Of a stretch of 64,000 nt of DNA, positions 5,829 to 25,385 are shown piece by piece. The notes beneath the pieces were generated by a model. It ran no database searches. It saw only the letters and a list, made by a program, of their open reading frames with translations, and was not told the origin of the DNA. Position numbers and translations under genes: made by a program. Position 1 is the stretch's first letter; every line of letters starts with the position of its first letter. Source of the DNA: Clostridia bacterium (lineage in GTDB: Bacteria; Bacillota; DSM-521; Neomoorellales; SLTJ01); assembly GCA_024653205.1 (NCBI GenBank), contig JANLFO010000005.1:1-64000 (forward strand), given 5' to 3'.

Positions 5829-6161
5829 TCAGCTCCAGAGTAAAACTATGCTTATGATCACCAGCCCGGCCACGAACCAGGCCAGGTAGTCGGCGGCTAT
5901 GCCGGTGTGCCCGGCCTGCAGCGGCCGGTAGTAACCCCTGAGGGCTTCGAGAAAGCCCCAGTAGATGTTTCCCGCCCGCAGGTGCTCCTTTTCCCTTTCC
6001 GGCTGCCCGGACAAGAAGGGCTTGGTCTGCTCGGTTCCCTTCTGGTAGCCCGCCCGGCCTAGAGCCCGGATAATGAGGGTAATGGCCAGGGCCAGGGCCA
6101 GGGCCACAAGCCAGAAAATAGGGTGCCAGAAGCCGCTTCCGGTAACCAGGGTCTCCAACAC
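5829..6161 (-). CDS. mbhI: Mbh hydrogenase membrane subunit MbhI
   Basis: A 110-residue protein with two transmembrane helices, one near residues 12-35 and one near 88-109, joined by a cytoplasmic loop with EHLRAGNIYWGFLEALRGYY. The position between the MrpD-like mbhH and the small subunit mbhJ, the length and the topology match MbhI, which in the Pyrococcus complex bridges the Mrp-like pump and the hydrogenase arm. The identity rests mainly on gene order. Its stop is 12 bases from mbhJ, and it starts at the base before mbhH ends. Confidence 0.78.
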   Translation of the reverse strand: MLETLVTGSGFWHPIFWLVALALALAITLIIRALGRAGYQKGTEQTKPFLSGQPEREKEHLRAGNIYWGFLEALRGYYRPLQAGHTGIAADYLAWFVAGLVIISIVLLWS

Positions 6162-11302: not shown

Positions 11303-12049
11303 ATGTGCAAACCGAACCGACATCTCGGCGCAGTTCTGTTAGTCTTAGCCCTGCTCGGCCTGGTGGCCGGGTTTCGTTTCTATTTGGGAGCGCGCCTTCC
11401 GGCCGACTGGGCGGCGGAACTGCAGAGGGCTGCGCCCTGGGTGCCGGAAGTGCAGGTGGAAAAGGTGGTCCTCGACCACGACCAGGACGGCGACGGCATC
11501 CCGGACCTGGACGACACGGTGCAAGGCGCCAGGGAGTACGTCCGCACCCGTCCGCGGTACCGCGACGGCTACTACGCCGGCGGCTACCCGCCTCCCGGCG
11601 AAGGCGTGTGCACGGACGTTATCTGGCAGTCCCTCCGGGCTGCCGGCTACGACCTCAAGGCCATGGTGGACGCCGACATCCGCGCCCACCCCGATTTGTA
11701 CCCCCGGGTGGGGGGCAAGCCCGACCCCAACATCGATTTTCGGCGGGTGGCCAACCTGGTGGTCTTCTTTGAACGCCACGCCGCCTCCCTGACCACCGAG
11801 GTTCGACCGGGTGACCCCGAAAACCTGAAGCAGTGGCAGGCCGGGGACATCGTAGTCTTCGGCCCGCCGCTGGCGCACATCGCCGTGGTGTCCGACCGCC
11901 GCCGTCCGGACGGCGTACCTTACCTCCTCCACAACGCCGGTCCCTGCGCCGCCGAAACCGACGCGCTGCTCTCCTGGCCCACCCCCATTACCCACCACTT
12001 CCGCTTTCCCGACCCCAAGAAACTCCCCGCGCAGCAGGACCACCCGTAG
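11303..12049 (+). CDS. DUF1287-family exported protein
   Basis: A 248-residue protein with an N-terminal membrane anchor or signal (about residues 8-26) and a DUF1287 domain, recognised by CTDVIWQSLRAAGYDLKAMV, the DPNIDFRRVANLVVFF block and GDIVVFGPPLAHIAVVSDRR. DUF1287 proteins belong to the NlpC/P60-like papain fold (Cys in the CTDV motif, His in AHIAVVS), so a cell-wall peptidase or amidase role is likely but unproven. Start ATG 11303. A Ca-binding-like DHDQDGDGIPDLDD run at about residues 58-71 resembles a dockerin or thrombospondin-3 loop, which is an unusual addition. Confidence 0.85.
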   Translation: MCKPNRHLGAVLLVLALLGLVAGFRFYLGARLPADWAAELQRAAPWVPEVQVEKVVLDHDQDGDGIPDLDDTVQGAREYVRTRPRYRDGYYAGGYPPPGEGVCTDVIWQSLRAAGYDLKAMVDADIRAHPDLYPRVGGKPDPNIDFRRVANLVVFFERHAASLTTEVRPGDPENLKQWQAGDIVVFGPPLAHIAVVSDRRRPDGVPYLLHNAGPCAAETDALLSWPTPITHHFRFPDPKKLPAQQDHP

Positions 12050-12097
12050 CCGGCTCCTTCGGGCCGAGGGGCCGACGTATCCGCAGTGTACCTTGGG

Positions 12098-12234
12098 CGG
12101 CACCGGGTGCTCCTGGCTGATCCAAAGGCGGGGTCGTCCCCGGTTTGTCCGGGGGCAGTGCCGGTTCTGTTCCTCGTACCCAGGACTTACCGGCAACCGA
12201 ACCGGGTGAGAACAAGCGCGGAAGCCAAAGCTGA
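12098..12234 (-). repeat. Partial copy of the dispersed MITE-like family (copy 1)
   Basis: Sequence with GGCAGTGCCGG, a diverged CTCGTACCC stretch, and ACCGAACCGGGTGAGAAC resembles one arm and the start of the core of the 250-base family. It lies directly against the next copy (12235-12446), suggesting nested or tandem insertion with loss of the other half. Confidence 0.5.
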
Positions 12235-12446
12235 GGCGGTAGCGGGTGCTCACCTGAGTACATTGGCACCTCGCCGGGGACCGAACTCGGTGAGGGCAAG
12301 TCCGGAGGCGGGCCGTAGGCCACGGACGGCCGAAGCGGCGGGGCGCCACGGACGGCGCCTCCGCCGGGAGCCCGCCGGAGGGCGAGGCCCGAACCCTAGT
12401 TCGGTCGGCGAGGTGACAGTACGAACGGGGAGCACCCGCTACCGCC
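12235..12446 (-). repeat. MITE-like element, near-complete copy (copy 2)
   Basis: A perfect 16-base inverted repeat, GGCGGTAGCGGGTGCT at 12235-12250 and its complement at 12431-12446, brackets a core with ACCGAACT boundaries on both sides. The same arms and core recur at 21741-22003 in the opposite orientation. Spurious open frames run through it on both strands, but their protein is Arg/Pro/Gly low complexity and not conserved between copies. With copy 1 and flanking sequence it accounts for the 615-base gap between the DUF1287 gene and the flavoprotein gene. Confidence 0.8.
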
Positions 12447-12665
12447 CGAGGTGCTCCGGGAAGAGGTCCGGATCTCGGGCTAATCGGGGTCCGGGCATAC
12501 CGGTACGAGGGCAGGGCCGGCACCGGCCTCGAAACAGCAGCGTCCGTCAGGTCCAAAGGGTATTGACAGGCGCCGTGCCCGGGCTTGTACGGCAGGCCCT
12601 GGCCCTCGGCAGGCGGGACATAGGGTAGCGCGGGGGCGCCGGGGCCGGTACCCGAACGGCAGCAG

Positions 12666-13835
12666 TCAGGCTCCCGGCTTCAGCCGCGAGGCCAGGTCGG
12701 GAACCCGCCGGGCCACGCGGCGCAGGAGCTCCCGGTAGGTGATCTCTCCGGATACCACCCCCATGAGTACGGAAGCCACCTCCGGGTGCCTTTTCAGCCA
12801 GGCGTGGGCCCAGCCCGGCGACAGGTATACCAGCAGGGCCAGGCGCCGGGCGGCGGCAAAGTCCGGCCACATCCGGGCGCGCAGGCGCCGGCTGTATCCC
12901 TCCAGGGCTCCGGCCCGGCCCTTTAGGTGCTCGATGACCGCTTCCGCCGCCCACAGCCCGCTCTGCAGGGCGTAGTAGATGCCCTCCCCGGTAAGGGGAT
13001 TCACCAGGCCGGCGGCGTCCCCGGCGGCGAGACCCCAGGTGCCGTGCCAGGCCTGCGGCGCCCGCAGCAGTATCGGCAGGGGGTGCGCCCGCGCCGGGGC
13101 GCGCGGCACCCGCTCCATCTTCCGGGAGCGCAGGAAGGCATCGAGCGCGGCCGGCAGCCGCCCGCCCCGAACCCCGAACGACCCCACTCCCACAGAGAGA
13201 TGCCGCGCCTTGGGGAAGATCCAGGCGTAGCCTTGCTCCACGGCTCCGTAGTCTATGTATACTCGGCCGCGATAGGCGGAGATTTCTTTTTCCTCTAGCG
13301 GCAGCTCGGCCTCCAGCGCCACCCCCCGGTGCAGGGGCAGGTGGATGCCCAGCGCCCGCGCGGTCCGGCTGAAAGCGCCGTCGGCGGCCACGACCACCCG
13401 GGCCGACAGCTGCCGGCCGCCGCCGCCCAGGAGGGTGACTCCCGCCGCGCCCGGGATCAGCCTCTCGACCCGAAAGCGGGAAATTATACGGGCTCCTGCC
13501 GCCTGCGCCTGCTGCAGCAGCCACTGGTCGAACCGGTCGCGCATGACCAGGCGGGCCACCGGCCTTCCCGCACGCACCTCCACCGGCTCGGCCCGGCCGA
13601 AGCAGAAGACTATTTTCAGCATCTCGTCCTCCACCACCTCGGTCGGCTCGCCGGGCAGGAGGGACCAGGCCTTGCGCGTCACCCCGCCCCCGCAGGCCTT
13701 GTAGCGCGGCAGGGCGGCCTTCTCCAGCACCACCACCTCCCTGCCTTCCCGGGCCAGGTACCAGGCGGCCGCCGCCCCCGCCGGCCCGCCTCCCACCACC
13801 GCTGCGTCCCACATTTCCGGATCGTCCAAGCCCAA
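12666..13835 (-). CDS. Geranylgeranyl-reductase-family FAD oxidoreductase
   Basis: A 389-residue FAD-dependent oxidoreductase. AAVVGGGPAGAAAAWYLA is the Rossmann dinucleotide-binding motif, YKACGGGVTRKA is the geranylgeranyl reductase family signature, and GLAAGDAAGLVNPLTGEGI is the second FAD motif. Relatives reduce isoprenoid chains of lipids or quinones; others are of unknown role. It is transcribed on its own, toward repeat copies 1 and 2. The start is ATG 13835. Which isoprenoid, if any, it reduces cannot be said from sequence. Confidence 0.87.
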   Translation of the reverse strand: MGLDDPEMWDAAVVGGGPAGAAAAWYLAREGREVVVLEKAALPRYKACGGGVTRKAWSLLPGEPTEVVEDEMLKIVFCFGRAEPVEVRAGRPVARLVMRDRFDQWLLQQAQAAGARIISRFRVERLIPGAAGVTLLGGGGRQLSARVVVAADGAFSRTARALGIHLPLHRGVALEAELPLEEKEISAYRGRVYIDYGAVEQGYAWIFPKARHLSVGVGSFGVRGGRLPAALDAFLRSRKMERVPRAPARAHPLPILLRAPQAWHGTWGLAAGDAAGLVNPLTGEGIYYALQSGLWAAEAVIEHLKGRAGALEGYSRRLRARMWPDFAAARRLALLVYLSPGWAHAWLKRHPEVASVLMGVVSGEITYRELLRRVARRVPDLASRLKPGA

Positions 13836-13867
13836 ACCCCCTCCCAGTCTTCGAGCCGGTGAACCCC

Positions 13868-13925
13868 GGTCGGCCCTGCCGGCAGTCCTGGTTCCCTCTC
13901 CTACCGGCCGGCTACCAGAATTATC
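13868..13925 (+). repeat. Short remnant of the MITE-like family (copy 3)
   Basis: CTGCCGGCAGTCCTGGTTCC followed by a CCTACCGGCCGG stretch matches one arm of the dispersed element (compare 45197-45240 and 49625-49670). The other arm is missing. The rest of the gap to 14084 has no gene that I can recognise. Confidence 0.6.
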
Positions 13926-14084
13926 TGCGGCGAGGTGCGGATTCTACGGTGCCTGATCGGAATCCTGCCGCCGGAAAGCCCGGCTACCGGAAGCGTCACC
14001 TTGGTGAGAGCTGGTCCCGGACGCAATACAAAAGAGGGTGCCGTGACCTCGTCTTGGCACCCTCCCAATCCCCGATGAAATACC

Positions 14085-14330
14085 TCATGGCGCCGCCGCG
14101 TTTTTGCGCCCCGCCCGCCGGGCTTTCCAGCCCTTCCACAAGAATTTGGGCAGGAAGCCGATCACTCCCTTCCCCAGGACCTTCTTGATTTCCCAGGCCT
14201 CTTCCGGGCGCACATACACGACCATACTCATCGCGCCCACCACCTTTACCCGGCAGACCAGATTTTCCCCCTCCCGCTCTATGGAGGTGATATCTAACAG
14301 CGGCCGCCCGTCCTTGCTGTAAAGTTTCAT
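14085..14330 (-). CDS. Small conserved-looking protein of unknown function
   Basis: An 81-residue protein beginning MKLYSKDGRPLLDITSIERE, with a beta-rich first 60 residues (GENLVCRVKVVGAMSMVVYVRPEEAWEI spread over two strands) and a basic C-terminal tail KGWKARRAGRKNAA. No family is recognised. It follows the FixX-like ferredoxin gene by 40 bases on the same strand, so it is probably the last gene of the fixC-fixX transcript. Start ATG 14330. Confidence 0.6.
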   Translation of the reverse strand: MKLYSKDGRPLLDITSIEREGENLVCRVKVVGAMSMVVYVRPEEAWEIKKVLGKGVIGFLPKFLWKGWKARRAGRKNAAAP

Positions 14331-14370
14331 TTCGTCCTGCCACCCATAGATTCGAGGGCCCCGGCCGCCC

Positions 14371-14706
14371 TTAGGAGTACTTCAGCACTATGCCGGTTCC
14401 CGCCTCCGGGTAAGACCAGTCGATGGCGTCCACGGGACATACATAACGGCAGGCACCGCACTCCCCACAGAGCGCCATACCGTGCTTCCATACCGCCTTG
14501 CCCTCTTCCATCTCGTAAGAGCCCGTGGGACAGATGATGTAGCAGATCTGGCAGCCGATACCGATGCACTTGTTCCGGTCGACCTTGATATGCTCTTTGG
14601 TCTTGGGAATGACCTCGTACTTGCCTTGGAGAAGCTCGCGCACCTTCGCCCCCACGATCTGCGGCCCGCAAAGGATACCGGCATCGTTCTGCTTGTAGTC
14701 TGCCAT
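14371..14706 (-). CDS. fixX: FixX-like ferredoxin
   Basis: A 111-residue ferredoxin-like protein with two cysteine clusters: CIGIGCQICYIICP (C-x4-C-x2-C-x3-CP) and CGECGACRYVCP (C-x2-C-x2-C-x3-CP). It directly follows the FixC homologue (32-base gap), and the pair is the usual fixC-fixX arrangement in electron-bifurcating Fix systems, where the ferredoxin-like subunit shuttles electrons with FixC. The full second motif suggests two 4Fe-4S clusters. No fixA or fixB is present in the window. Confidence 0.82.
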   Translation of the reverse strand: MADYKQNDAGILCGPQIVGAKVRELLQGKYEVIPKTKEHIKVDRNKCIGIGCQICYIICPTGSYEMEEGKAVWKHGMALCGECGACRYVCPVDAIDWSYPEAGTGIVLKYS

Positions 14707-14738
14707 CTTGGCTCCCCCTCTCTTTTGTGACTACCCCA

Positions 14739-16121
14739 TCATTCAGCTTTCAAGGCGCTGAGCAGGCCCATCAGGCCACCGGCCTTCTTCACGGCCCCTT
14801 CGCTGATCTTCTTGATGGTCATGGGCATCTCCAGGAAGGCCGGAAGGGCCGGGAGCAACTTGGGCAGGCCGCCGATGAAGAGGGAAACGTAGGACATATT
14901 CTCGAACTTCCCGGCAATGGCAAACGAGCTGAATTCATCCAAGGCCTTCCAGATCTTATCGAAGCTGCCGTCCCTGAAGAACCGGCTTATCTCGTGGACC
15001 TCGTCCTCGCCCACCCAGGACTCGCGCCAGGTCTTTTCGTACCTGGCGAACATGGCCTCGGAGTAATCGTTCTTGGCCTTCATCTCCGCGGCCAGCTCGG
15101 CGGCCATCCTTCCCTGCCACTGGGCCACGTTGGCCCCCCAGCTGTCGCACGGGTTGGCAAACCCGCCCGCATCGCCCACCAAAATCAAACCCGGCAGGTA
15201 CGACTTCGCCACGTAGCCCACAGTGTCAAACGAGGTTAGACAGTGGAAGTTGCACTGGATGAACTCCCCACCCTCAATCAGCCTCTTGACCTTGGTCTGG
15301 TTCAAGTACCATTGCGCCCGCTGGTGGATGTTGACCCGGGCCCTCACCATTTCTTTTAGGGTCTGGTAGGTAGTGATATCGACAATGCCCCGGCCCGGAT
15401 AGGCCACGGCGTGGGCGGCGAAAAACTCCGGGGTAGAGCCGAACTGAACCGGCGTGTCGCCCCAGTCGTAAACCTCCACTCCGTCCGTATCCCAGTAGAG
15501 GTCTACCCTCTGCCGAAGTACCTCTGGATCCAACCGGTAGACGTACTTTACCGCCAGCATGACCTTATCCATGCCGAACCTGGCCAGACCCGCCCTGCGG
15601 GCCAGAATGGAATGCAGCCCGGAGGCGTCGATGGTCACCGGGGCCTCGAAATTGCCGACGTCGGTAACCACCCCCCTCACCCGGGCGTGTTCAGTCCCTT
15701 TGTTCTCCCAGATCAGGTCTTGGGCCAAAGCCGTTTTAAGCTCAGCACCAGCCTTCACCGCCTGGTCGGCAAACCACTTATCGGTCTCGTTGCGGAACAC
15801 GTTCAGCATATTCCGGAAGACGTCCGCTCCAGGGGCCAGCCCCAGAGTATACATCTTTTCGTCGTTGTCCAGCACGTACTGCATGGCGATTCCCTTGAAG
15901 CGGGGCATGTCCTTATTGCATGCAGCTTCGGAGAACCCGGGGAATATCTCTTCGGAGATGCCCCGCCACAAAGAGCTTCCCGACATGTTCTTGTCGCCCG
16001 GGTTTCTCCCGCGCTCCAAAAGCAAGACCTTAAGACCCTTGTCGGCGGCGGTCTTGGCGGCGGCAGTACCGCCCGGCCCGGCGCCTACTACGATTAAGTC
16101 ATAGCCCTTACTCACAGCCAC
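14739..16121 (-). CDS. fixC: FixC-like electron-transfer flavoprotein:quinone oxidoreductase
   Basis: A 460-residue FAD protein of the FixC/ETF-QO family: LIVVGAGPGGTAAAKTAAD (Rossmann), LLERGRNPGDKNMSGSS, and GLILVGDAGGFANP (second FAD motif). FixC accepts electrons from the FixAB flavoprotein and works with FixX; in anaerobes it may feed menaquinone or act in bifurcation. A good sigma-54 promoter lies about 100 bases upstream (16232-16247), and a sigma-54 activator is divergently encoded. The absence of fixAB nearby is odd, since they are normally the first genes of the operon. Start ATG 16121 after GGAGGAGG. Confidence 0.88.
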   Translation of the reverse strand: MAVSKGYDLIVVGAGPGGTAAAKTAADKGLKVLLLERGRNPGDKNMSGSSLWRGISEEIFPGFSEAACNKDMPRFKGIAMQYVLDNDEKMYTLGLAPGADVFRNMLNVFRNETDKWFADQAVKAGAELKTALAQDLIWENKGTEHARVRGVVTDVGNFEAPVTIDASGLHSILARRAGLARFGMDKVMLAVKYVYRLDPEVLRQRVDLYWDTDGVEVYDWGDTPVQFGSTPEFFAAHAVAYPGRGIVDITTYQTLKEMVRARVNIHQRAQWYLNQTKVKRLIEGGEFIQCNFHCLTSFDTVGYVAKSYLPGLILVGDAGGFANPCDSWGANVAQWQGRMAAELAAEMKAKNDYSEAMFARYEKTWRESWVGEDEVHEISRFFRDGSFDKIWKALDEFSSFAIAGKFENMSYVSLFIGGLPKLLPALPAFLEMPMTIKKISEGAVKKAGGLMGLLSALKAE

Positions 16122-16231
16122 GCCTCCTCCTTTCCCGAATTCGGTTTGAGAGAGGTTTCGGGAACGAACAAGTTACGCCCTGCGCGGAGTCACTGATCCC
16201 CCGCGGGAACTCACGGCCCGGCTGTGGGCAA

Positions 16232-16247
16232 AGCAACAACTATGCCA
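16232..16247 (-). promoter_or_regulatory. Sigma-54 (-24/-12) promoter for fixC-fixX
   Basis: Read on the minus strand, TGGCAT (16247-16242), 5 bases, TTGCT (16236-16232) matches the RpoN consensus TGGCAC-N5-TTGCW with one change; the essential GG and GC are 10 bases apart. Transcription would begin near 16220, about 100 bases before the fixC ATG. The neighbouring divergent activator gene has the matching domain set. Confidence 0.75.
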
Positions 16248-16321
16248 GGCATGGGCAGCGAATTCTTCTTGGAATATCCGGGCCCGGACGGAAACACCGC
16301 CGAAGGGAAAGGCAGGAGATT

Positions 16322-16352
16322 GACAGCTGGCTATACATATGGCTAGACATGG
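16322..16352. promoter_or_regulatory. Possible activator binding repeats (UAS)
   Basis: Two near-identical direct repeats, TGGCTATACATA and TGGCTAGACATG, follow each other at a 12-base period about 90 bases upstream of the sigma-54 promoter. That is where bacterial enhancer-binding proteins usually bind. The assignment is inference only. Confidence 0.35.
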
Positions 16353-16537
16353 CGCTGCAAGCGGCCCCAAGTCTCGGCAGGAGGAGGGATGAAGGCCTTG
16401 GGAGCGAAATGAAGGATGGTGCCGGGAAATTTCGGGCCGAGCGGAGGCGCCCCCGAAACAACGGCAGAGGGCGCGAGGGAGTGCTGCCAACCTGGTCCCG
16501 AGAACGCACCAGCCGGGATAACGGGGAGTGATCGAGG

Positions 16538-17980
16538 ATGCGCCTAGAGTTATCCATGGAGGAGCTGACCAACCGGGGCGGCGTGCTGGACAAACTCATG
16601 GATGCGGTGTTCGATGCCGCCGTTCTGGTTGACCGCCAGGGGCGCATAATTCACGCCAGCAAGGGCACGGCCGAGCTGGCCGGCCAAACGCAGGAAGCCC
16701 TCCGGAGCCAGCCGATTAGCGTTCTGCACCCCGACACCAAGTACGAGCACATCATTCGCAACGGCAAGGCCGAGATAGAATTGGTAAAGTCGGTGACGGG
16801 GAGAAAATGCATAGTCAACGTGGTTCCCATCACCTGGAAAGGCGAAGTAATCGCCGTGCTGGGGATAGTGGTCTTTCGCGGCCTGGGTCAGCTGAAGGCG
16901 GTTCTGGCCAGTCTGGTCGAACAATCTAAGAAAGAATACGACCCCGACCAGACCTACGACGCTCTGGCCCGTCTGGACTCCAGCTATACCTTCGACGACT
17001 TTATTGGGGAAACCCCGGTGGTCAAGAAGTTATTGGCCCAGTGCAGGAGAGCGGCTTTAAGCCCCTACCCGGTTCTCATTACCGGGGAGACGGGCACGGG
17101 CAAGGAGATACTGGCCAGCGCCATTCATTCCGAGTATCGCCGGAACTCCTTTGCGCCTTTCATCAAAATCAACTGCACCGCCATCCCCCACGACCTGTTA
17201 GAATCTGAACTTTTCGGGCACGAGAAGGGCGCCTTTACCGGAGCGGTAGCGGCCAAGAAGGGAAAATTCGAGCTGGCCTCCGGTGGATCTATCCTTCTAG
17301 ACGAGATCGGCGACATGGATCTGGGGCTACAGGGCAAACTGCTGCGCGCCATCGAAGAAAAGGAGTTTGAAAGGGTCGGCGGCACCAAGTTATTGCCGCT
17401 TAATGCCCGCATCCTGGCCTCCACCAACCGCAGCCTGAAGGAACTGTGCCGGCAGGGCAGGTTCCGGTGGGATCTGTACTACCGGCTGAGTATCATCGAA
17501 ATCAAGGTCCCGCCCTTGCGGGCCCGCAAGGAGGACATCCCCCTTCTCACCAGGCATTTGGCCGAAAAGCACGGGGCAGAAATCTCCTTCTCCCCGGGAG
17601 CGCTCCGGGCCCTAATGGAGTACGACTGGCCGGGCAACGTGCGGGAACTCCGCAATGTGGTGCTCCGGCTCAGTCTGGTGGGGGAGCGAAAAGTGGTTAC
17701 CGCCGAGGAGGTTAAGGCGGTACTCGGCGAAGACCAGGGTCCTACCGGCCCAGGAATTATTGGCCAAGACCCCGTCCGCGGCGAGAAAGAGGCGCCCCCC
17801 GGAACGGACTCGGTGGCGGCAGAGGAAAAGGAGGCCATCCTGCGCGCCCTGGAGCTCTGCCACTTCAACGTAGCCGCCGCGGCCAGGCGACTGGGAGTGT
17901 GCCGGGCCACGCTGTACAGCCGGATAAGGAAGTATAACATCGTCTTACAAAGAACCTACCTTCCCAGGATGTACACGTAG
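16538..17980 (+). CDS. PAS-domain sigma-54-dependent transcriptional activator
   Basis: A 480-residue enhancer-binding protein. A PAS sensor occupies about residues 20-110, the AAA+ domain about 150-390 with Walker A GETGTGKE (183-190), the sigma-54 contact loop GAFTGA (231-236) and Walker B SILLDEIGD, and a Fis-type helix-turn-helix lies at the C-terminus (about 425-465). It is divergent from fixC, whose upstream region holds a sigma-54 promoter, so it most likely activates the fixC-fixX operon in response to a signal sensed by the PAS domain (redox, ligand or metabolite; unknown). Start ATG 16538. Confidence 0.92.
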   Translation: MRLELSMEELTNRGGVLDKLMDAVFDAAVLVDRQGRIIHASKGTAELAGQTQEALRSQPISVLHPDTKYEHIIRNGKAEIELVKSVTGRKCIVNVVPITWKGEVIAVLGIVVFRGLGQLKAVLASLVEQSKKEYDPDQTYDALARLDSSYTFDDFIGETPVVKKLLAQCRRAALSPYPVLITGETGTGKEILASAIHSEYRRNSFAPFIKINCTAIPHDLLESELFGHEKGAFTGAVAAKKGKFELASGGSILLDEIGDMDLGLQGKLLRAIEEKEFERVGGTKLLPLNARILASTNRSLKELCRQGRFRWDLYYRLSIIEIKVPPLRARKEDIPLLTRHLAEKHGAEISFSPGALRALMEYDWPGNVRELRNVVLRLSLVGERKVVTAEEVKAVLGEDQGPTGPGIIGQDPVRGEKEAPPGTDSVAAEEKEAILRALELCHFNVAAAARRLGVCRATLYSRIRKYNIVLQRTYLPRMYT

Positions 17981-17994
17981 GTGGGCAATAATTT

Positions 17995-18804
17995 TTACTT
18001 GCCCAGGCGATACACCAAGGTGGCCGGGCCGAGCGGGCTAAAGCCCAGCTTTTCCCACATGGGAACCAATTCCGGGGTAGAGGTGAGAACTACCTGCTGG
18101 AACCCCTGTCCCTCCGCCCATTCCAGCAGGGCCTCCACCGTACGGCGGGCGTAACCCCGGCCGCGCAGGGGTTCGGGGACAAACAGGAGGGTGAGGTTAA
18201 CGGTGTGGCGCTTGACGGAGAAGGTAAGGGCGAAGCGATCGGAGGGTGACTGGCCGAAGCCGAAGGAAATCATGTAGGGATCGCCGGCATTGAACCCGGA
18301 AAGCTTGACCGGCCGGCTGAAGAGGCGCTCCAGCTCGGTCCTAAGGGGGCTCAGATCCAAGGCCTCCAGGGCCCGTTCCTCGCCGCCACTCAGCAGCCGC
18401 CGCAGGCTGGGGAACTCCAGCCCCAGGTAGGCCAGCCCCAGAGTGACGAAGGCGGGCAGGTAGAGCCCGGTGCCGATGGCCAGTCCCAGGGCGCTGGCCA
18501 CCCACAGCGTGGAGGCGGTGGTAATGCCCCGCACCCAGGACCCCTCCCGCCAGATTACGCCGGCGCCAATGAAGCCCATGCCGGTAACCACCTGGGCCGC
18601 CACCCGGGCAGGGTCGCGGGTAATGCCCGGTCCCCCGCCAAAGCCATAGAGGGAAATTATCATGTACAGGGCCGAAGCCAAGCATACCAGGGCGTGGGTG
18701 CGCGAGCCGGCGGGCTTGTGCTGGTGAGCCCGCTCATAACCCAGCAGCGCCCCGGCGGCAAAAGCCAAAACCAGGCGCAAGACCATTTCGGGCTGTAGCC
18801 CCAC
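17995..18804 (-). CDS. MgtC/SapB membrane domain fused to a GNAT acetyltransferase domain
   Basis: A 269-residue protein. The N-terminal 120 or so residues carry the MgtC/SapB core: LLGYERAHQHKPAGSRTHAL, VVTGMGFIGAGVIWREG and RGITTASTLWVASALGLAIG, with four to five helices. The C-terminal part has a GNAT fold signature, LRGRGYARRTVEALLEWAE (acetyl-CoA loop) and MWEKLGFSPLG. MgtC proteins usually end in an ACT-like domain instead, so this is an unusual fusion. The start is GTG 18804 with GGGAGG 6 bases upstream; the frame is open to 18939. It is convergent with the activator gene, 14 bases apart. The substrate of the acetyltransferase part is unknown. Confidence 0.82.
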   Translation of the reverse strand: MGLQPEMVLRLVLAFAAGALLGYERAHQHKPAGSRTHALVCLASALYMIISLYGFGGGPGITRDPARVAAQVVTGMGFIGAGVIWREGSWVRGITTASTLWVASALGLAIGTGLYLPAFVTLGLAYLGLEFPSLRRLLSGGEERALEALDLSPLRTELERLFSRPVKLSGFNAGDPYMISFGFGQSPSDRFALTFSVKRHTVNLTLLFVPEPLRGRGYARRTVEALLEWAEGQGFQQVVLTSTPELVPMWEKLGFSPLGPATLVYRLGK

Positions 18805-18884
18805 CGCCACCCTCCCACCCCCAAAGTTGCGTGATGGCCTTAAGAATACTCCGGCGACCCTGCGCTTACCTGCTTGTCGGCCTC

Positions 18885-19150
18885 TACAGTCGCTTGCCCC
18901 GGGTTCGGTGCCCGGCGAGGCCTTAGGTGCTCGGATCAACCGGAGATTCCCTAACCCTGCCGCTGCCGGATTCTACGGCCTGAGGCCGGACTCCTGCCCG
19001 CCCGCCGCCGCCCCGGGGCAAGAACCCATGGCGCAGGCGCGGCTTCGCGTCCGTGGCTCGTGCGCCCGCCTCCGCCCTCGCTCTCGCCGAGTTCGCTTTA
19101 GGCACGCGGTGAAACCGGAACTACCAGCGGAAAACGGGCATAACTTGGGG
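18885..19150 (+). repeat. MITE-like element, diverged copy (copy 4)
   Basis: Core-like sequence (CAAGAACCCATGGCGC, CGCCTCCGCCCTCGCTCTCG) and a right arm (GAGTTCGCTTTAGGCAC, then GTGAAACCGGAACTACC) match the family; the left half is rearranged, with a second CGGGTTCGGTGCCCGGCGAG near 18899. It fills most of the 427-base gap between the MgtC-GNAT gene and the peptidase gene. The open frame through it that joins the peptidase frame is not part of that gene. Confidence 0.65.
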
Positions 19151-19231
19151 GAAGGGAAAACTCGCGGTAGAGAAGAAATACTGCTAGGGTGGGGCGCAAG
19201 CCGCACACCGGAACGCGAAGGGGGATCGGCG

Positions 19232-20512
19232 GTGGAACGAGTGGAAAGCATTTTGGCGGACCTGATCCGGATCGATACCAGTAACCCACCGGGGAACGAA
19301 AAGGCCGCGGCCGATTACCTGGCGAACCTGTTCGGGCGCTACGGCATTCCCCACCGGGTGGTGGAGTCCGCGCCGGGCCGGGCCAGTTTCGTTGCCCGTC
19401 TGGGCCGCGGGACCCGGCGCCTGCTCTTCCTTTCGCACACCGACGTGGTTCCGGCCGGCTCGGGCTGGGACTTCCCGCCCTTCGGCGGCGAGATCCGCGA
19501 CGGCTACGTACTGGGCCGGGGGGCGCTGGACGATAAGTCTCTGGTGGCGGCCGAGGCTTACGTGTTCCTGCGCCTGGCCGAGGAGGGCCGGCCGCTTAAC
19601 GGCACCCTCATCTTCGTGGCCGCCGCAGACGAGGAGGCAGGAGGGCGCTACGGTCTGCAGTACCTGGCCGAAAACCTGCCCGAGGTACTGGAGGCCGATT
19701 TCGCCGTAAACGAGGGGGCGCCGGAACCGGTTATGGTGAACGGCCGGCCGATTTACTTCCTCCAGGTGGGGGAAAAAGGCATAGCCCAGAGCCGCCTCCG
19801 CACCGGGGGCAAGGCGGCGCACGGCTCCACCCCCACCCTGGGCGAGAACGCGGTGGCGAAGATGGCGGAGATCATCGGCCGTCTGGCCGGATCGGCCCCG
19901 CCGGTGGAGCTGCTGCCCGAGGTGCGGGTGCTCTTCGAGGAACTGGCCCGCCACCTGGGGGTGCCCGCCCCCACCGAGAGGGATCCGGACCCGTTCCTGG
20001 AGCGGTTTGAGGACCGGGGATTTCGCGAATACCTACGCGCCCTCACCCGAATGACGGTGTCGCCCAACGTGGTCCACGGCGGCACCCGGGTCAATGTGGT
20101 CCCCGACGCCTGCGAGCTGCTGGTGGACGTGCGGCTGCTGCCGGGGCAGACCCGGGCGGATGCGGAGGCCCTGCTCCGCCGCCTGGCCGGGCCGGAAGCG
20201 GAAATAGAGGTCTTCTCCTACCACCCGCCCACCCGTTCCCCGGCGCAGGTGCCGGCCTGCGAGCTGATCCAGCAGGTGCTGCTGGAGACCACCGGGGCCG
20301 CCGCCTGCCTGCCCTGCCTTTCCACCGGGGCCACCGACTCCCGCTTCCTGCGCGAAATGGGGATACCCGCCTACGGCATATGTCCCTGGCGGCCCGACTT
20401 CGAGCCGGCCCTGAAGGAAACCGTTCACGGGCCCAACGAGCGCATTGACCTCGCGAGCCTCAACCTTGCCGCCGAGTTCCTGTACCGGCTGGCCGTGACC
20501 TACCTGGGTTAG
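19232..20512 (+). CDS. M20-family metallopeptidase (ArgE/DapE/peptidase-like)
   Basis: A 426-residue M20 zinc peptidase. The expected metal and catalytic residues are visible: FLSHTDVVPAG, GRGALDDKS, AADEEAGG (general base and metal Glu), STGATDSRF and KETVHGPNE. The dimerisation domain with GKAAHGSTP lies between. The family includes acetylornithine deacetylase, succinyl-diaminopimelate desuccinylase and carboxypeptidases, and the sequence does not decide which. The start is GTG 19232, 6 bases behind AAGGGGGA; the frame extends upstream into repeat copy 4 but that is not coding. Confidence 0.88.
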   Translation: MERVESILADLIRIDTSNPPGNEKAAADYLANLFGRYGIPHRVVESAPGRASFVARLGRGTRRLLFLSHTDVVPAGSGWDFPPFGGEIRDGYVLGRGALDDKSLVAAEAYVFLRLAEEGRPLNGTLIFVAAADEEAGGRYGLQYLAENLPEVLEADFAVNEGAPEPVMVNGRPIYFLQVGEKGIAQSRLRTGGKAAHGSTPTLGENAVAKMAEIIGRLAGSAPPVELLPEVRVLFEELARHLGVPAPTERDPDPFLERFEDRGFREYLRALTRMTVSPNVVHGGTRVNVVPDACELLVDVRLLPGQTRADAEALLRRLAGPEAEIEVFSYHPPTRSPAQVPACELIQQVLLETTGAAACLPCLSTGATDSRFLREMGIPAYGICPWRPDFEPALKETVHGPNERIDLASLNLAAEFLYRLAVTYLG

Positions 20513-20617
20513 AGCGATCCTGGTGTATAACAATCTTGCCATGCGCATTCTCTCGGTCGTCGATGGAAATGAACACGGCTCCGTTGACCTGGCACCGCGG
20601 CCGGTCTGGCTGGACCA

Positions 20618-20977
20618 CTATTTAGCGCCTACCTTCCTGATTCGGACGTGGTTGCGGGTGACCACGGTAAAGGCGCCAGCGAGTTCCGCGAGGTGCCTAT
20701 CGATAGCCGAGGCAACCAACCTGGCCTTAGCTTCCTGCGGCAGACCCGAAAGCCTTATCAGGATGGCGCCGGCAATTGCGCGGCGTTGCCGAAACACGAT
20801 TTCCCCGAAGTCTTTGTCCGCCGTGATCAGTACAGCCTGTTTTCTGTTAGCCTGGCTCAAGAGCTCCTCGTCAGAAATACCCGGTTCCGTCTCCGCCACG
20901 TATGCGACCTCGTGGCTGCGACTTCGGAGTTCAACGACGATCTCGCGATCTACGTTCTCGTCGGCCAGGAATCTCAT
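20618..20977 (-). CDS. DUF5615 PIN-like toxin
   Basis: A 119-residue DUF5615 (PIN-like) protein: MRFLADENVDREIVVELR with the first acidic residues, the central SDEELLSQANRKQAVLIT and TADKDFGEIV with the distal Asp. DUF5615 proteins pair with DUF433 antitoxins. The gene starts at ATG 20977 in a 4-base overlap with the DUF433 gene. It is transcribed away from the tRNA-Arg locus. The toxin role is inferred from the pairing. Confidence 0.83.
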   Translation of the reverse strand: MRFLADENVDREIVVELRSRSHEVAYVAETEPGISDEELLSQANRKQAVLITADKDFGEIVFRQRRAIAGAILIRLSGLPQEAKARLVASAIDRHLAELAGAFTVVTRNHVRIRKVGAK

Positions 20978-21213
20978 TCTGCCGCCTCTTGTACCGGATA
21001 GATCACGTCAGCCCGTATGGCTTCCGCGGCAAACGCAAGGGCCGCCCGAATTCCTTCCTCAGTGAGGCGCGGGTGAGCCTTTAGGATTTGCTCCACCGTT
21101 TCCCCTGCGGCAAGCTTCTCCAGGATGAGTTCCACCGGTATCCTGGTTCCGGCAATTACGGGCTTCCCCATAAGGACTCTGGGGTTAGACGTGATCAGAT
21201 TCGCCATCGCCAT
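20974..21213 (-). CDS. DUF433 antitoxin
   Basis: A 79-residue DUF433 protein with the typical LITSNPRVLMGKPVIAGTRIPVE start (GKPVIAGTRIPV is the signature) and a helix-turn-helix-like second half. It forms a classical DUF433/DUF5615 module with the overlapping downstream gene. It lies next to an integrase remnant and tRNA-Arg, so it may have arrived with a mobile element. Confidence 0.85.
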   Translation of the reverse strand: MAMANLITSNPRVLMGKPVIAGTRIPVELILEKLAAGETVEQILKAHPRLTEEGIRAALAFAAEAIRADVIYPVQEAAE

Positions 21214-21248
21214 GCTGCACGCCCCTCTCTGCGATTGTCGCTGTTCCC

Positions 21249-21474
21249 CTACGGAGAATCCAGAACCTCAACCGCAAGTTCTACCATCTGTGCAAGCGAG
21301 CCGGGATCAGCGCGAACCTGCACGCGCTTCGGCACACCTTCGCGACGAGGCTCCTCGAGCAGAGCGTGGACTCAAGGTCGTGCAGGAGATTCTCGGCCAC
21401 TCGCAGATAGCTATCACCGCCGACACGTACGCCCACGTCACGCCCAGACTGCAGCGAGAGGCTGCCGAAAAGAT
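21249..21474 (+). pseudogene. Tyrosine recombinase/integrase, C-terminal remnant with frameshift
   Basis: One frame gives NRKFYHLCKRAGIS and LHALRHTFATRLLEQ (the HxxR active-site box); after about position 21366 the protein continues one frame over as LKVVQEILGHSQIAITADT and TYAHVTPRLQ (the His/Tyr region with the nucleophilic tyrosine). The catalytic N-terminal parts are absent. The remnant points at the 3' end of tRNA-Arg and stops against its CCA, the classic position of an integrase at attL. A dead integrated element is the simplest reading; the DUF433/DUF5615 pair next to it may be cargo. Confidence 0.82.
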
Positions 21475-21552
21475 TGGCGCGCCCGGCAGGATTCGAACCT
21501 GCGGCCCACGGATTAGAAGTCCGTTGCTCTGTCCTAACTGAGCTACGGGCGC
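21475..21552 (-). tRNA. tRNA-Arg (UCU), CCA encoded
   Basis: Read on the minus strand, the acceptor GCGCCCG pairs with CGGGCGC, the D-arm TAGCTCAGTTAGG and the T-arm GTTCGAATCC are present, and the anticodon loop CTTCTAA gives anticodon TCT. The 3' CCA is encoded (TGG at 21475-21477 on the plus strand). An integrase remnant abuts the 3' end. Confidence 0.95.
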
Positions 21553-21613
21553 GCGGCTGTGGGACTCAGATAGGGCCGGAAACGCAGGGTTTCCGGCCCG
21601 GCTCGTTCTATTC

Positions 21614-21687
21614 TGGAGCGGGTGATGGGAATCGAACCCACCCGACTGGCTTGGAAGGCCAGGGCTCTACCACTGAGCTACACCCGC
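21614..21687 (-). tRNA. tRNA-Gly (UCC), CCA encoded
   Basis: Minus strand: acceptor GCGGGTG/CACCCGC, D-arm TAGCTCAGTGGTAGA, anticodon loop CTTCCAA with anticodon TCC, and T-arm GGTTCGATTCC. CCA is encoded at 21616-21614. It lies 61 bases upstream of tRNA-Arg on the same strand, so the two are probably cotranscribed. Confidence 0.95.
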
Positions 21688-21740
21688 CCGCAGTGGATAT
21701 GATATCGCAAAAGCGCACGACGGTCAACGCCCTTTGGACC

Positions 21741-22003
21741 CGAGTTATCCCCAGTTTTGAGTTGGCTGGCGGTACCGGGTGCTCCCCGTTCGTACTGTCA
21801 CCTCGCCGACCAAACTAGGGCTTGGGCTTCGCGCTACGGCGGGCTTCCCTCGGAGGCGCCGTCCATGGCGCCCCTCGGCTTCGGCCATCCATAGCCTCCG
21901 GCCCGCCTCCGCCCTCGCCCTCGCCAAGTTCGGTGCCCGGCGAGTTGCCAATGTACCCAGGCGAGCACCCGGTACCGCCTGAGGGAAACTGGGGATACGT
22001 CAG
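21741..22003 (+). repeat. MITE-like element, complete copy with target-site duplication (copy 5)
   Basis: The best-preserved copy. Outer inverted repeats TATCCCCAGTTT (21746-21757) and AAACTGGGGATA (21986-21997) are perfect over 12 bases, and an inner pair GGCGGTACCGGGTGCT (21768-21783) and its complement (21964-21979) is perfect over 16. A direct 10-base duplication, CCTTTGGACC, flanks it at 21731-21740 and 22004-22013. The core holds CCGTCCATGGCGCC and CGCCTCCGCCCTCGC as in other copies. No real gene lies inside, although several low-complexity frames are open. Confidence 0.9.
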
Positions 22004-22133
22004 CCTTTGGACCTCAGTTGTCACCGCCTGCCCCGGCGTGTGCCGGTCTCTCCACGGTACCGTCTCAACCTAGGCCTGACAGGCTTCCCCGGACCGGCCG
22101 CTGCGTCCGGGCCAGCTGGGGGGCTCTGGCCGG

Positions 22134-22700
22134 TTACGGCCATAAGTTCTTCAGAAGGATTTCCAGCCCTGGAAGCAGCGGTGAGGTCAGAACCGCGTCG
22201 TCCTCCAGCTCCGCCACCTTCACCAGGCGGCCTTCGGCGTCGCGCCGATACACTTCCAGAATGCGCAGCTCCGGGTCGGCCATCCAGTACTCCAGCACGT
22301 CGTGCTGGCCGTAGAGTGCGCGCTTGAGCTTTCTATCGATCTGCCGGGAAGCCTCCGAGACGACCTCAACCACCAGGTCGGGCGCGCCCTGGATGTTCTG
22401 CTTGGTGACTCGATCCAGGTGAGCGTTACTCAGGAATATCAGGTCAGGCTGGACCACGTCGCGCGGTGACAGCACCACATCTACGGGAGCAAAGAAAACC
22501 TGACCCAGCTGGTGCTTCAACACAAATCCGCCGAGCACCATGTACAGGTTCCCGAGAAACAGCTGGTGCACGGTAGTCGGTGCCGGGGTCACGAAGTGCT
22601 CCCCCCCGATGAGCTGGTGGCGGCGCCCGTCGTCGGGCAGGAGGAGATATTCCTCGTAAGTTAGGCCCCCGGCCGCCGCTTCTTTTCTCGCCAGGCTCAT
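22134..22700 (-). CDS. Uma2-family (DUF820) PD-(D/E)XK protein
   Basis: A 188-residue Uma2/DUF820 protein: LTYEEYLLLPDDGRRHQLIGG at the N-terminus, VVQPDLIFLSN, then GAPDLVVEVVSEASRQIDR, whose D-x(n)-ExV pattern is the nuclease core, and a final AVLTSPLLPGLEI. The start is ATG 22700 with GGGGG at 5 bases, rather than the longer frame to 22745. Members are abundant in cyanobacteria and some thermophiles, and are suspected nucleases often linked to mobile DNA; none has a settled function. Confidence 0.85.
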   Translation of the reverse strand: MSLARKEAAAGGLTYEEYLLLPDDGRRHQLIGGEHFVTPAPTTVHQLFLGNLYMVLGGFVLKHQLGQVFFAPVDVVLSPRDVVQPDLIFLSNAHLDRVTKQNIQGAPDLVVEVVSEASRQIDRKLKRALYGQHDVLEYWMADPELRILEVYRRDAEGRLVKVAELEDDAVLTSPLLPGLEILLKNLWP

Positions 22701-22743
22701 AGGCACCCCCCTGCACATTTTACCCCGGCTCAAGCATGGGCGC

Positions 22744-22855
22744 AAGCGCCAAGCCTCCCGGCCATCGGCAGCCTCCGGCCCGCCTGCGGACTTGCCCTCG
22801 CCAAGCTCGGTACCCGGCGAGGTGCCAATGCACTCAGAGGGGACCCGGAGATGCA
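22744..22855 (+). repeat. MITE-like element, right half (copy 6)
   Basis: CGGCCCGCCTGCGGACTTGC, then CCCTCGCCAAGCTCGGTACC and CGAGGTGCCAATGCACTCAG correspond to the core end and right arm of copy 5. The left arm is absent; the sequence stops against the rdgB gene end and the Uma2 gene start. Confidence 0.65.
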
Positions 22856-22860
22856 GAAAG

Positions 22861-23505
22861 TCACGGCCGGGGGTTCGTGAGCGCCTGCAGGATGGGGAGG
22901 GCCTTGGCCACCGCCCGTCCCCGGTGGCTCACCCGGTTCTTAACTTCCTCCGGCAGCTCCGCCAGGGTGCAGCCGTACTCGGGCAGGTAGAACAGAGGAT
23001 CGTAGCCGAAGCCGTTTCCTCCCCGGGGCGCAAGAGCGATAAAACCCTCGCAGGTGCCCTCCACCAGGACTTCTTCAAATGCCGGTTCCTTGGCTTCGGC
23101 AGAACCGGTTCTCACCGGGCTGAGAACGGCCAACACGCAGCGAAAGCGCGCCCGCCTTGCCTCTAAGGGAAGGCCGTCGAGCAGCCCCAGGAGCTTGCGG
23201 TTGTTCTCGTCGTCGGCGGCCTTATCGCCGGCGAAGCGCGCCGAGTGTATTCCCGGCCGCCCGTCCAGCGCGTCTACTTCCAGGCCGGAGTCGTCCGCCA
23301 GGGTGAGCCGTCCGGTGGCCCGGGCGACCGCCCGCGCCTTGGCCAGGGCATTCTCCGCGTAGGTTCTCCCTTCCTCCGGCGGCAACGTCAGCCCGGGAAA
23401 GTCGCACACCGACAGGAGCCGCACCGGCAGCCCGGCCAGCAGGAAGGCAAACTCCCGCAGCTTGCCGCTATTGCCCGTGGCCACTACCAGATCCGTCTGC
23501 TCCAT
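22861..23505 (-). CDS. rdgB: XTP/dITP pyrophosphatase (RdgB/HAM1)
   Basis: A 214-residue HAM1-family enzyme that hydrolyses XTP, dITP and ITP to monophosphates, keeping deaminated purines out of nucleic acids. Motifs: [13 protein letters not shown] (substrate loop), [25 protein letters not shown] (catalytic Asp), GFGYDPLFY and VSHRGRA. It overlaps the end of rph by 38 bases; rph-rdgB is a common pair in Firmicutes. A slight insertion (RTGSAEAKE, about residues 132-140) is seen in the middle. Confidence 0.95.
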
Positions 23506-24253
23506 GGCCTGCTTCCCTCTCCCCGATTCTTCCGGCCAGCGGGCCCAGCACCCGTTTCTGCACCTCGATCAATTCCCCGATGCCCCGGCGGGTCAGGTCG
23601 AGCATGGTGGAGAGTTCTCCTTGGGAGAAGGGCGTTCCCTCGGCGGTGCCCTGCACCTCCACGAACAGCCCCCTCCCGGTCATTACCACGTTGAAATCCA
23701 CTTCTGCCCGGGAATCCTCTTCAAAGGTCAGGTCCAGCAAGATCTGCCCGTCTACCTTGCCCACGCTGATTGCCGCCAGGAAATCCTTGAGGGGCAAACG
23801 CTCGAGCTGGCCGCGCACCACCAGGGTCTCCAGGGCCAGGGCCAGGGCTACGAAACTGCCGGTTATGGCCGCGGTGCGGGTGCCGCCGTCCGCCTGAAGC
23901 ACGTCGCAGTCCAGCCACACGGTGCGCTCGCCCAGGGCCGCCAGGTCCACTACCGCCCGCAGGGAACGGCCGATGAGACGCTGGATCTCCTGGGTGCGGC
24001 CGGAAAGGAAAGCCCGGCCCGCCTCCCTGACGTTGCGGGTCTGGGTGGCCCGGGGGAGCATGCCGTATTCCGCCGTCACCCAGCCCTTGCCCTCGCCCTT
24101 GAGGAAAGGCGGCACCTTCTCCTCGATGGTGGCCGTGCACACCACCCGGGTATCGCCGGCCGAGATGAGCACCGACCCCTCCGGGTACTTGAGATAGTTG
24201 GGTATGATCTGTACCGGCCGCAAGTACGCGGCCTGGCGACCGTCCTTTCGCAC
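23468..24253 (-). CDS. rph: Ribonuclease PH
   Basis: A 261-residue phosphorolytic 3'-5' exoribonuclease that trims tRNA 3' ends. Motifs: [76 protein letters not shown] and [21 protein letters not shown]. The C-terminal tail after residue 245 is short, polar and not conserved. It is followed by rdgB in a translationally coupled arrangement. The stretch upstream (24254-24572) carries a repeat copy and presumably its promoter. Confidence 0.96.
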
Positions 24254-24339
24254 TCGTCTGCCCGCCCCGGCATCCCCCGCCGGGGCAGTCTGGCTCCTTT
24301 CTGCCTAGGATGTCCCGCCTAAGTTTAGCACACCTGCCG

Positions 24340-24570
24340 GAGTCTGCCAAGGCCGCAATCCGCCCGTCGCGGTCCCGGTTTCCGGGGTGGTACCGGTTCC
24401 CCCGTACCGGTACTCGGCCGACGGAACCGGGGTTCGAGGCCGCGGGCTCCGGCATGCTCCCCGCGCAAGAACCCGTCCGTGGCGCCGCCCCGGCTTCGGC
24501 CATCCGTGACCTTCCGCCCGCGTTCGCCCTTGCCCGCGCGAAGCAGGGCGGGGACAATCCGGCGCTTTCC
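24340..24570 (+). repeat. MITE-like element, diverged copy (copy 7)
   Basis: GGTTTCCGGGGTGGTACCGG opens an arm, and the core CCCGCGCAAGAACCCGTCCG plus TGGCGCCGCCCCGGCTTCGG resembles the cores of copies 4 and 8. The right arm is lost; the copy runs into the end of the MBL gene. It fills the gap between rph and the MBL-fold gene. Confidence 0.65.
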
Positions 24571-24572
24571 CC

Positions 24573-25385
24573 TCAGAACCCGTACACCCGGCCTTCTTCG
24601 GCCAGAAGCACCTGCCCGGAGAAGCGGCATTCGGCCTCGGCGCGCAGGCTTTCCGGGTCGTAGTCGGGCCAGAAGTGGGTGAGGATCAGGGTCCGCGCCC
24701 CGGCCCGGCCGGCCAGTTCCGCCGCCTGGGCGGCGGTGAGGTGATCGTCCGGCAGAAGCGGGCGGTCGGCGGTCAGAAGGCTGGCTTCCGCCAGAACTAC
24801 GTCCGCTCCGCGGGCCATTTCGGCCAGACCTTCCCACCAGGCGGTATCCCCGGTGTAGAAGAGCCTGCGGCCGGCGCACACGAGATCCAGGCAGCAGGCG
24901 GGGACGGCGTGGCGGGCGGCAAAGAAGCGCGCCCTTACCGGACCGACCTCGACCTCCACGAGGGGCGCGGGCGGGCCGGGTTCCGGCCCCCCGGGCGGAG
25001 CCAGCTCCGGAACGGCCCGGGCGATGAAAGCCTCGCGGTAAGAGGCAATCAGGGCAAAGAAGTCTGCCGGCTGGGCGGGCGCGTAGAGGGGCAGGGGCGG
25101 GGCCGGCAGGGCCTGTCCGTGGCCCCGGCCCGCCCGCGCCCGGAGGGCGTGCCGCAGGGCGGGGAGGTCGAACCAGTGGTCCGGGTGCAGGTGGGACAGC
25201 AGCACCGCCCGCAGCCGGTCGAGCCCTACGCTGCCCAGCAGCCGGGAGATCACCCCGTGGCCGCAGTCGACCAGCACGAACTCGGAGCCGTCGCCGATCA
25301 GGTACCCCGGGCAGGCCCCCCCGGGGGGCGCGAACGGCGCCCAGCGGCCCAGGACCCTCAGCTCCATCCGCCCCGGCGGTCTCAA
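24573..25385 (-). CDS. MBL-fold (RNase Z-like) hydrolase
   Basis: A 270-residue metallo-beta-lactamase-fold protein with LLSHLHPDHWFDLPAL (HxHxDH), a HAVPACCLDL histidine, YTGDTAWWEGL and LILTHFWPDYDPE. The layout (long insert after the first motif, GDT, late His) resembles RNase Z and related phosphodiesterases, but the exosite arm of true tRNase Z is not seen. It starts in a 4-base overlap with murI (ATG 25385). Substrate unknown. Confidence 0.82.
   Translation of the reverse strand: MRPPGRMELRVLGRWAPFAPPGGACPGYLIGDGSEFVLVDCGHGVISRLLGSVGLDRLRAVLLSHLHPDHWFDLPALRHALRARAGRGHGQALPAPPLPLYAPAQPADFFALIASYREAFIARAVPELAPPGGPEPGPPAPLVEVEVGPVRARFFAARHAVPACCLDLVCAGRRLFYTGDTAWWEGLAEMARGADVVLAEASLLTADRPLLPDDHLTAAQAAELAGRAGARTLILTHFWPDYDPESLRAEAECRFSGQVLLAEEGRVYGF

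Follow-up and report, generated by a model that had tools for sequence, protein, structure and literature searches.

Introduction

MgtC of pathogenic bacteria carries a divergent ACT-like C-terminal domain (PMC4469704), and the Escherichia coli protein was placed in the membrane, by fusion experiments, with its N-terminus outside and its C-terminus inside (PMC4604451). With regard to GNAT-like tails, it was reported that binding of acetyl-CoA to that of isocitrate lyase 2 (ICL2) from Mycobacterium tuberculosis rearranges and activates the enzyme (PMC6788997). PanZ, another GNAT-fold protein, activates PanD, and its function, in the words of its authors, appears not to be catalytic (PMC3496974). 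Since neither CoA nor acetyl-CoA showed an effect in the in vitro work of the same authors (PMC3496974), PanZ serves as a precedent for regulation and not for CoA sensing.

Here, we describe a gene in which an MgtC membrane domain is joined to a GNAT-fold tail. It lies in a 64,000-nucleotide stretch of DNA from a Clostridia bacterium (assembly GCA_024653205.1, contig JANLFO010000005.1, positions 1 to 64,000), hereafter called the window. In a search of titles and abstract beginnings of the open-licence literature, no description of an MgtC-GNAT fusion was found, and none of membrane-anchored GNAT proteins. The membrane family is a known one, and its pairing with this C-terminal domain was not found described there, although domain databases may already list the combination.

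The fusion gene and its domains

The gene is a single continuous frame of 269 amino acids on the minus strand, with no internal stop (Table 1). An alternative upstream start (TTG at 18939) would give a frame of 314 amino acids; the shorter frame is the better gene model because homology with relatives starts at about residue 3 and a GGGAGG stretch is located 5′ of the GTG start. The N-terminal part matches the Pfam MgtC family (PF02308) over residues 11-130 (E 2.2e-35; 122.1 bits against a cut-off of 31.4; profile positions 1-113 of 121), so the MgtC membrane domain proposed in a sequence-only reading of this DNA is borne out by domain search. In the tail, Acetyltransf_10 (residues 196-261, E 3.6e-7) and Acetyltransf_1 (residues 198-255, E 5.2e-7) both score above their curated cut-offs, and the two motifs quoted in the same reading are borne out: residues 214-222 read RGRGYARRT, and residues 249-257 read MWEKLGFSP. 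NCBIfam gave only below-cut-off matches to the protein, and its closest PDB sequence match is an acetyltransferase (E 0.0027). Within the window's genome, the fusion gene is the sole MgtC match, and the Acetyltransf_1 family has five matches, the fusion among them.

Table 1. Features of the fusion gene and of a partial tail copy; positions refer to the window except in the last line.
Feature	Position	Strand	Basis or remark
Complete fusion gene, 269 codons + stop	17995..18804	-	GTG start at 18804; last sense codon ends at 17998; stop 17997-17995
MgtC membrane domain, residues 1-132	18409..18804	-	Pfam PF02308; model; 63/132 positions invariant, n=9
GNAT-fold domain, residues 150-267	18004..18357	-	Pfam, models, fold searches
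Acetyl-CoA loop (motif A) RGRGYA, residues 214-219	18148..18165	-	Intact in window protein; broken in 5/9 members
Motif B end WEKLGF, residues 250-255	18040..18057	-	Trp250, Lys252, Gly254, Phe255 invariant 9/9
Partial tail copy in G003	L068 ~6014-6346 = contig C13 ~38067-38345	-	

Distribution and selection

The fusion is real and is passed on within a small set of anaerobic Clostridia. Eight other genomes carry a full-length homologue with 51-68% identity over the whole protein, in answer to the proposal that relatives be surveyed for the same architecture. Seven of these (L002-L008) came from a non-exhaustive scan, seeded with patterns and run on a single genome for each species, in which 46 of 92 candidate stretches were confirmed as relatives; at 51-67% identity, their alignments to the query start at residue 3-4 and end at 259-267. 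A further one, the ninth when the window protein is included, was found in G002, a genome of the window's family. Three other genomes with the fusion (G001, G094, and G129) are apparently the same as those of L002, L003, and L004, as judged by identical contig numbers and coordinates, and were counted once.

The architecture is unusual, as had been supposed. Of 398 genomes sampled from the phylum, 37 gave a match at E 0.001 to a profile of the tail, in a search that scored at most 10 candidates per genome; only five genomes, the window's included, have a strong match (E 6.5e-46 or better), all five matches are fusions, and the next match is at E 2.6e-8. Among the 22 genomes of the window's order, the fusion is present in the three of the window's family, a partial tail copy in one (G003), and no match in the remaining 18. 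The order of G094 (three genomes, one family) has the fusion in two of three. MgtC itself is present in 291 of 396 sampled genomes. Among the matches listed, G001, G002, and the genomes of L005-L008 have no MgtC other than the fusion, and G094 and G129 have a second, short MgtC besides it.

That two genes might have been joined by a frameshift was also raised in the sequence-only reading, and none is seen: the junction is free of stops in all nine frames. Frameshift, assembly chimera, and chance are ruled out by nine distinct fusions with open frames in separate genomes.

Selection was measured as dN/dS with a Nei-Gojobori script. In the six pairs among L005-L008, whose acetyl-CoA loop is broken, dN/dS is 0.13-0.28 for the tail and 0.03-0.07 for the membrane domain. 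The corresponding values are 0.23 and 0.11 for the window protein versus L002 (dS near 1.4, at or near saturation) and 0.40 and 0.29 for the window protein versus L072, a pair likewise at or near saturation. Where measurable, the tail is under purifying selection that is weaker than that on the membrane part, and its low dN/dS in L005-L008 despite the broken motif A indicates that it is retained for some function.

Predicted fold of the tail

The model of the full-length protein (mean pLDDT 82.8, pTM 0.59) has five long helices in the membrane part (residues 3-27, 34-53, 65-83, 94-111, and 115-139), then a helix at 141-147. The tail is modelled as a helix (152-162), four strands (167-172, 175-182, 192-198, and 201-208), a helix (218-232), a strand (237-241), a helix (244-252), and a last strand (262-266); modelled alone, it reaches pLDDT 77.8 and pTM 0.74. 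Foldseek aligned the tail of the full-length model with GNAT structures, giving seven matches at E 0.001 (best E 1.8e-4), and the tail-only model does better, with 102 matches at E 0.001, the best being 5jph (E 9.7e-6, TM-score 0.58), with GNAT entries throughout the matches listed. VIA-align superposes the tail on NatD (Z 10.3, 129 aligned residues, rmsd 3.5), the acetyl-CoA-bound tail of ICL2 (Z 9.5, 127 aligned, rmsd 3.5), and PanZ/YhhK (Z 9.3, 102 aligned, rmsd 3.0), where rows less than one Z unit apart are taken as tied and it is common in itself for the best Z to reach 7 to 8. Taken together, the succession of GNAT entries and the Pfam matches place the modelled tail in the GNAT fold, in agreement with the C-terminal domain first proposed.

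In GNAT enzymes, two acceptor-binding helices between the first two strands form the acceptor site. In the model, strand 167-172 is followed by strand 175-182 without an intervening helix, and pLDDT is about 60 at residues 171-190. A complex with antizyme (4zgy chain B, E 4.7e-3) occurs among the lower Foldseek matches; antizyme is a GNAT-fold binder with no known enzyme activity.

Conserved residues and the acetyl-CoA loop

Across the nine fusions, 63 of 132 positions are invariant in the membrane domain and 24 of 118 in the tail (residues 150-267), the latter including P210, E211, R214, T241, S242, W250, K252, G254, and F255. The strict motif A, Q/R-x-x-G-x-G/A, is found in three of the nine members (the window protein, L002, and L003), or in four when the last position may also be Ser (L072). 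It is broken in the other five: the Gly is lost in L004 and in L005-L008, and the final small residue is also lost in L005-L008. Pfam Acetyltransf_1 at E 0.01 matches only four of the eight members scanned. Strand 201-208 has no acidic residue in any of the nine fusions.

For control, 26 GNAT proteins (25 from the phylum sample and one from the window's genome) were used, a set found with the tail profile and hence biased towards it; of 29 loci in total, three that belong to the window's genome gave no match and lie outside the 26. A motif-A string is present in 24 of the 26 by a loose pattern search, and the motif B position is Trp in 11 and Tyr in 15 (script counts, with L080, L102, and L104 corrected by eye). 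Loss of motif A is therefore unusual among such proteins and Trp is not. Several ordinary GNAT matches, by eye, likewise have no acidic residue in the strand corresponding to 201-208. Both Trp250 and the absent strand-4 acid are thus seen in control GNAT proteins, which rules them out as proof of inactivity.

Membrane topology and gene neighbourhood

In all nine fusions, the loops carry 3-4 Lys/Arg (TM1-2), 1 (TM2-3), 2 (TM3-4), and 0 (TM4-5), and the stretch after TM5 has 3-7 Lys/Arg with 4-6 acids alongside. From these loop charges and the N-out/C-in arrangement of E. coli MgtC, we infer that the tail should face the cytosol, where CoA is found.

The fusion gene converges with a sigma-54 activator gene (16538-17980, plus strand) and diverges from an M20 peptidase gene (listed as 18827-20512, plus strand, with a true start likely further in). 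Neighbourhoods were compared for window positions 12001-25000 and L002-L008, which represent four contexts (the window, L002, L003/L004, and L005-L008); two weak matches between overlapping wrong-frame reading frames were disregarded. No neighbour or partner gene other than the fusion itself is common to the four contexts, as expected for a self-contained device. Neighbours in L003 are succinate dehydrogenase/fumarate reductase genes and cinA (Pfam), as they are in L004 by similarity. Purine-synthesis genes lie in L005 (Pfam) and, by similarity, L006-L008, and uvrB in L006 and, by similarity, L007 and L008. A neighbour in L002 is presumably groEL. With regard to an upstream RNA switch, a search of the window at gathering level returned three tRNAs only, and a search of L002-L007 at E 0.1 returned one miRNA match, which scored far under its cut-off and lies well away from the gene.

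Some other genes of the window were also noted. On the minus strand at 20618-21213, a DUF433 gene is followed by an overlapping DUF5615 (PIN-like) gene (Pfam), a pair that we take to be a likely toxin-antitoxin system, and 22134-22745 (minus) encodes a Uma2-type putative restriction endonuclease (Pfam E 6e-32). At 14371-16121 (minus), a ferredoxin-like gene adjoins an FAD-dependent oxidoreductase gene, and the two resemble the FixX/FixC pair of electron-transfer flavoprotein systems.

Origin of the fusion

A tree of 91 MgtC membrane domains, whose root is not known, was used to place the fusions. Twelve loci were left out of it (nine being the same genes as other loci, L139 and L144 near-copies of L140, and L126 omitted needlessly), as were identical sequences and matches spanning about 90 residues or fewer. 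The nine fusions make up a single group (99/99). It clusters with 23 proteins of Bacillota in which only 13-42 residues remain past the last helix (88/96, on a branch that is not starred), and the fork joining them to the nearest short-ended set is weak (89/0). The 41 long-tailed MgtC proteins, whose tails of 80-117 amino acids look ACT-like by eye, constitute a separate group (94/91). Because the fusions group with tail-less MgtC proteins, the GNAT-fold domain was probably added to a short-ended MgtC and not swapped for an ACT domain, a view with moderate support: in an AU test, a tree in which the fusions are made to join the long-tailed group is worse by 17.8 log units but is not rejected (p-AU 0.177). 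The earlier statement that the tail stands in place of the ACT-like domain is accordingly not upheld as worded, and replacement is judged, from the tree grouping, less likely than addition. No other MgtC fusion with a similar tail was seen by eye among the matches listed, at 39 loci (38 genes; the 30 best MgtC matches plus nine with long frames) with tails of 80-117 amino acids, ACT-like again being called by eye.

G003, which belongs to another family of the window's order, has a stretch that corresponds to about residues 150-245 of the window protein. This partial copy of the tail lacks its 3′ end, has no MgtC part with it, and looks like a relic. A separate short-ended MgtC is also present in that genome, and the gene just before the partial copy is, we assume, MaoC-like.

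Eleven Trp-type GNAT proteins of Bacillota (L078-L083, L085, L091, L095, L096, and L101) represent a possible parent family of the tail; ten of them can be aligned with its N-terminal stretch, and in L091 the domain lies inside a 359-amino-acid open frame, counted stop to stop. As for a mobile origin, 15 of 72,556 plasmid records matched the tail, the matches being partial, of GNAT type, and in no case reaching 80% of the query. A scan of viral contigs with MgtC-part patterns turned up no relative, and the stand-alone GNAT of L079 matched nothing in phages or plasmids at E 0.001.

Possible functions of the fusion protein

The tail had been called an acetyltransferase, which the data do not support as stated: motif A is strict in three of nine members (four with Ser), Acetyltransf_1 matches four of eight, and the model has no inter-strand helix, with low confidence there. 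Since motif A is broken in five of nine members and the acceptor helices are missing from the model in that low-confidence stretch, enzyme activity of the tail is doubtful. We infer, with about even confidence, that the protein is an MgtC-family membrane protein with a reduced cytosolic GNAT-fold domain of regulatory or anchoring function, probably non-catalytic and perhaps CoA-sensing in some members. The reduced tail would regulate or anchor the MgtC part and would not acetylate a substrate. In members with an intact loop, the window protein included, it would most likely bind acetyl-CoA or CoA and report acyl-CoA status to the membrane domain, by analogy with the acetyl-CoA-sensing tail of ICL2; in members with a broken loop, it may have been kept as a protein-binding or structural domain. 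Non-catalytic regulatory use is favoured over a tethered enzyme because the fold is kept, the loop is lost in some lineages with the tail still constrained, the acceptor helices are apparently absent, and no partner gene is shared. A more specific form, which we put forward only tentatively, is an acetyl-CoA-responsive MgtC whose tail reads the acyl-CoA level and switches the membrane domain, some lineages having lost CoA binding and kept a fixed regulator. The loss of motif A in five of nine members speaks against a CoA-sensing role shared by the whole set, and an effect of the MgtC part on ATP synthase or ion handling would follow from the parallel with Salmonella MgtC only.

The intact motif A of the window protein, which could still be an enzyme, counts against a non-catalytic reading, as do its closest PDB sequence matches, which are acetyltransferases. 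A working acetyltransferase tethered by the MgtC domain, acting on a membrane-proximal protein or small molecule and secondarily inactivated in the broken-loop lineages, would fit motif A in the window protein, L002, L003, and nearly L072, the two Pfam GNAT models above cut-off, the predominance of enzymes among the fold matches, and the frequency of Trp in motif B of GNAT matches. We consider it rather unlikely, given the low-confidence absence of helices between the first two strands, the lack of a partner gene common to the compared contexts, and the constraint on the tail of L005-L008 even though motif A is lost in five of nine; the missing acidic residue in strand 201-208 (9/9) is a weak point against it. 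The same constraint, with 24 of 118 tail positions invariant despite the broken loops, and the antizyme complex among the lower fold matches would suit a pure protein-binding or oligomerisation module with no CoA role in any member. This is less likely still, as the window lineage keeps motif A together with P210, E211, and R214 (9/9), which would be surprising if CoA had never mattered. Decay does occur, as in the partial copy of G003, but that the tail as a whole is an artefact of assembly or frameshift, or a functionless decaying domain, is very improbable in view of nine distinct fusions with open frames in separate genomes, their single group in the tree (99/99), and the tail dN/dS in L005-L008.

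An MgtC protein with a tail of a fold whose ligand (acyl-CoA) is known would give a direct handle on what the C-terminal domains sense, and natural members with intact and broken loops offer built-in comparisons. In anaerobic Clostridia, the acetyl-CoA-responsive form of the regulatory reading, if true, would link carbon supply with membrane energetics or with ion balance; if the tail is inert to CoA, it would be one more GNAT fold reused without chemistry.

Comparison with known systems

Compared with MgtC/SapB proteins (PF02308) of the E. coli/Salmonella MgtC type, the window protein has the full membrane domain, five long helices in the model, and a C-terminus expected to be cytosolic. The tail of the virulence-type MgtC is ACT-like, whereas that of the window protein is GNAT by Pfam and predicted fold. 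Its membrane domain groups (88/96) with the short-ended MgtC/SapB proteins of Bacillota (Brevibacillus and the copies in G003, G025, G043, G048, G053, G094, and G129), which differ in ending 13-42 amino acids past the last helix where the fusion has its GNAT-fold tail.

On the side of the tail, the closest relatives outside the fusions and the G003 copy are short Trp-type GNAT proteins of Bacillota such as L079, L082, and L083 (E 1e-9 to 6e-6 within a small search set). They share the alignable N-terminal stretch and an end of the FW-x-x-x-GF type, but are not fused to MgtC in the frames seen and have the motif A pattern in ten of eleven. ICL2 resembles the fusion in having a GNAT fold as the C-terminal domain of an unrelated protein; its partner is a soluble enzyme and its acetyl-CoA binding has been demonstrated, whereas the fusion tail, at 16% identity, is known from sequence and model. 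PanZ/YhhK of E. coli is likewise a GNAT-fold protein acting on another protein, although it is a separate protein and has no membrane domain.
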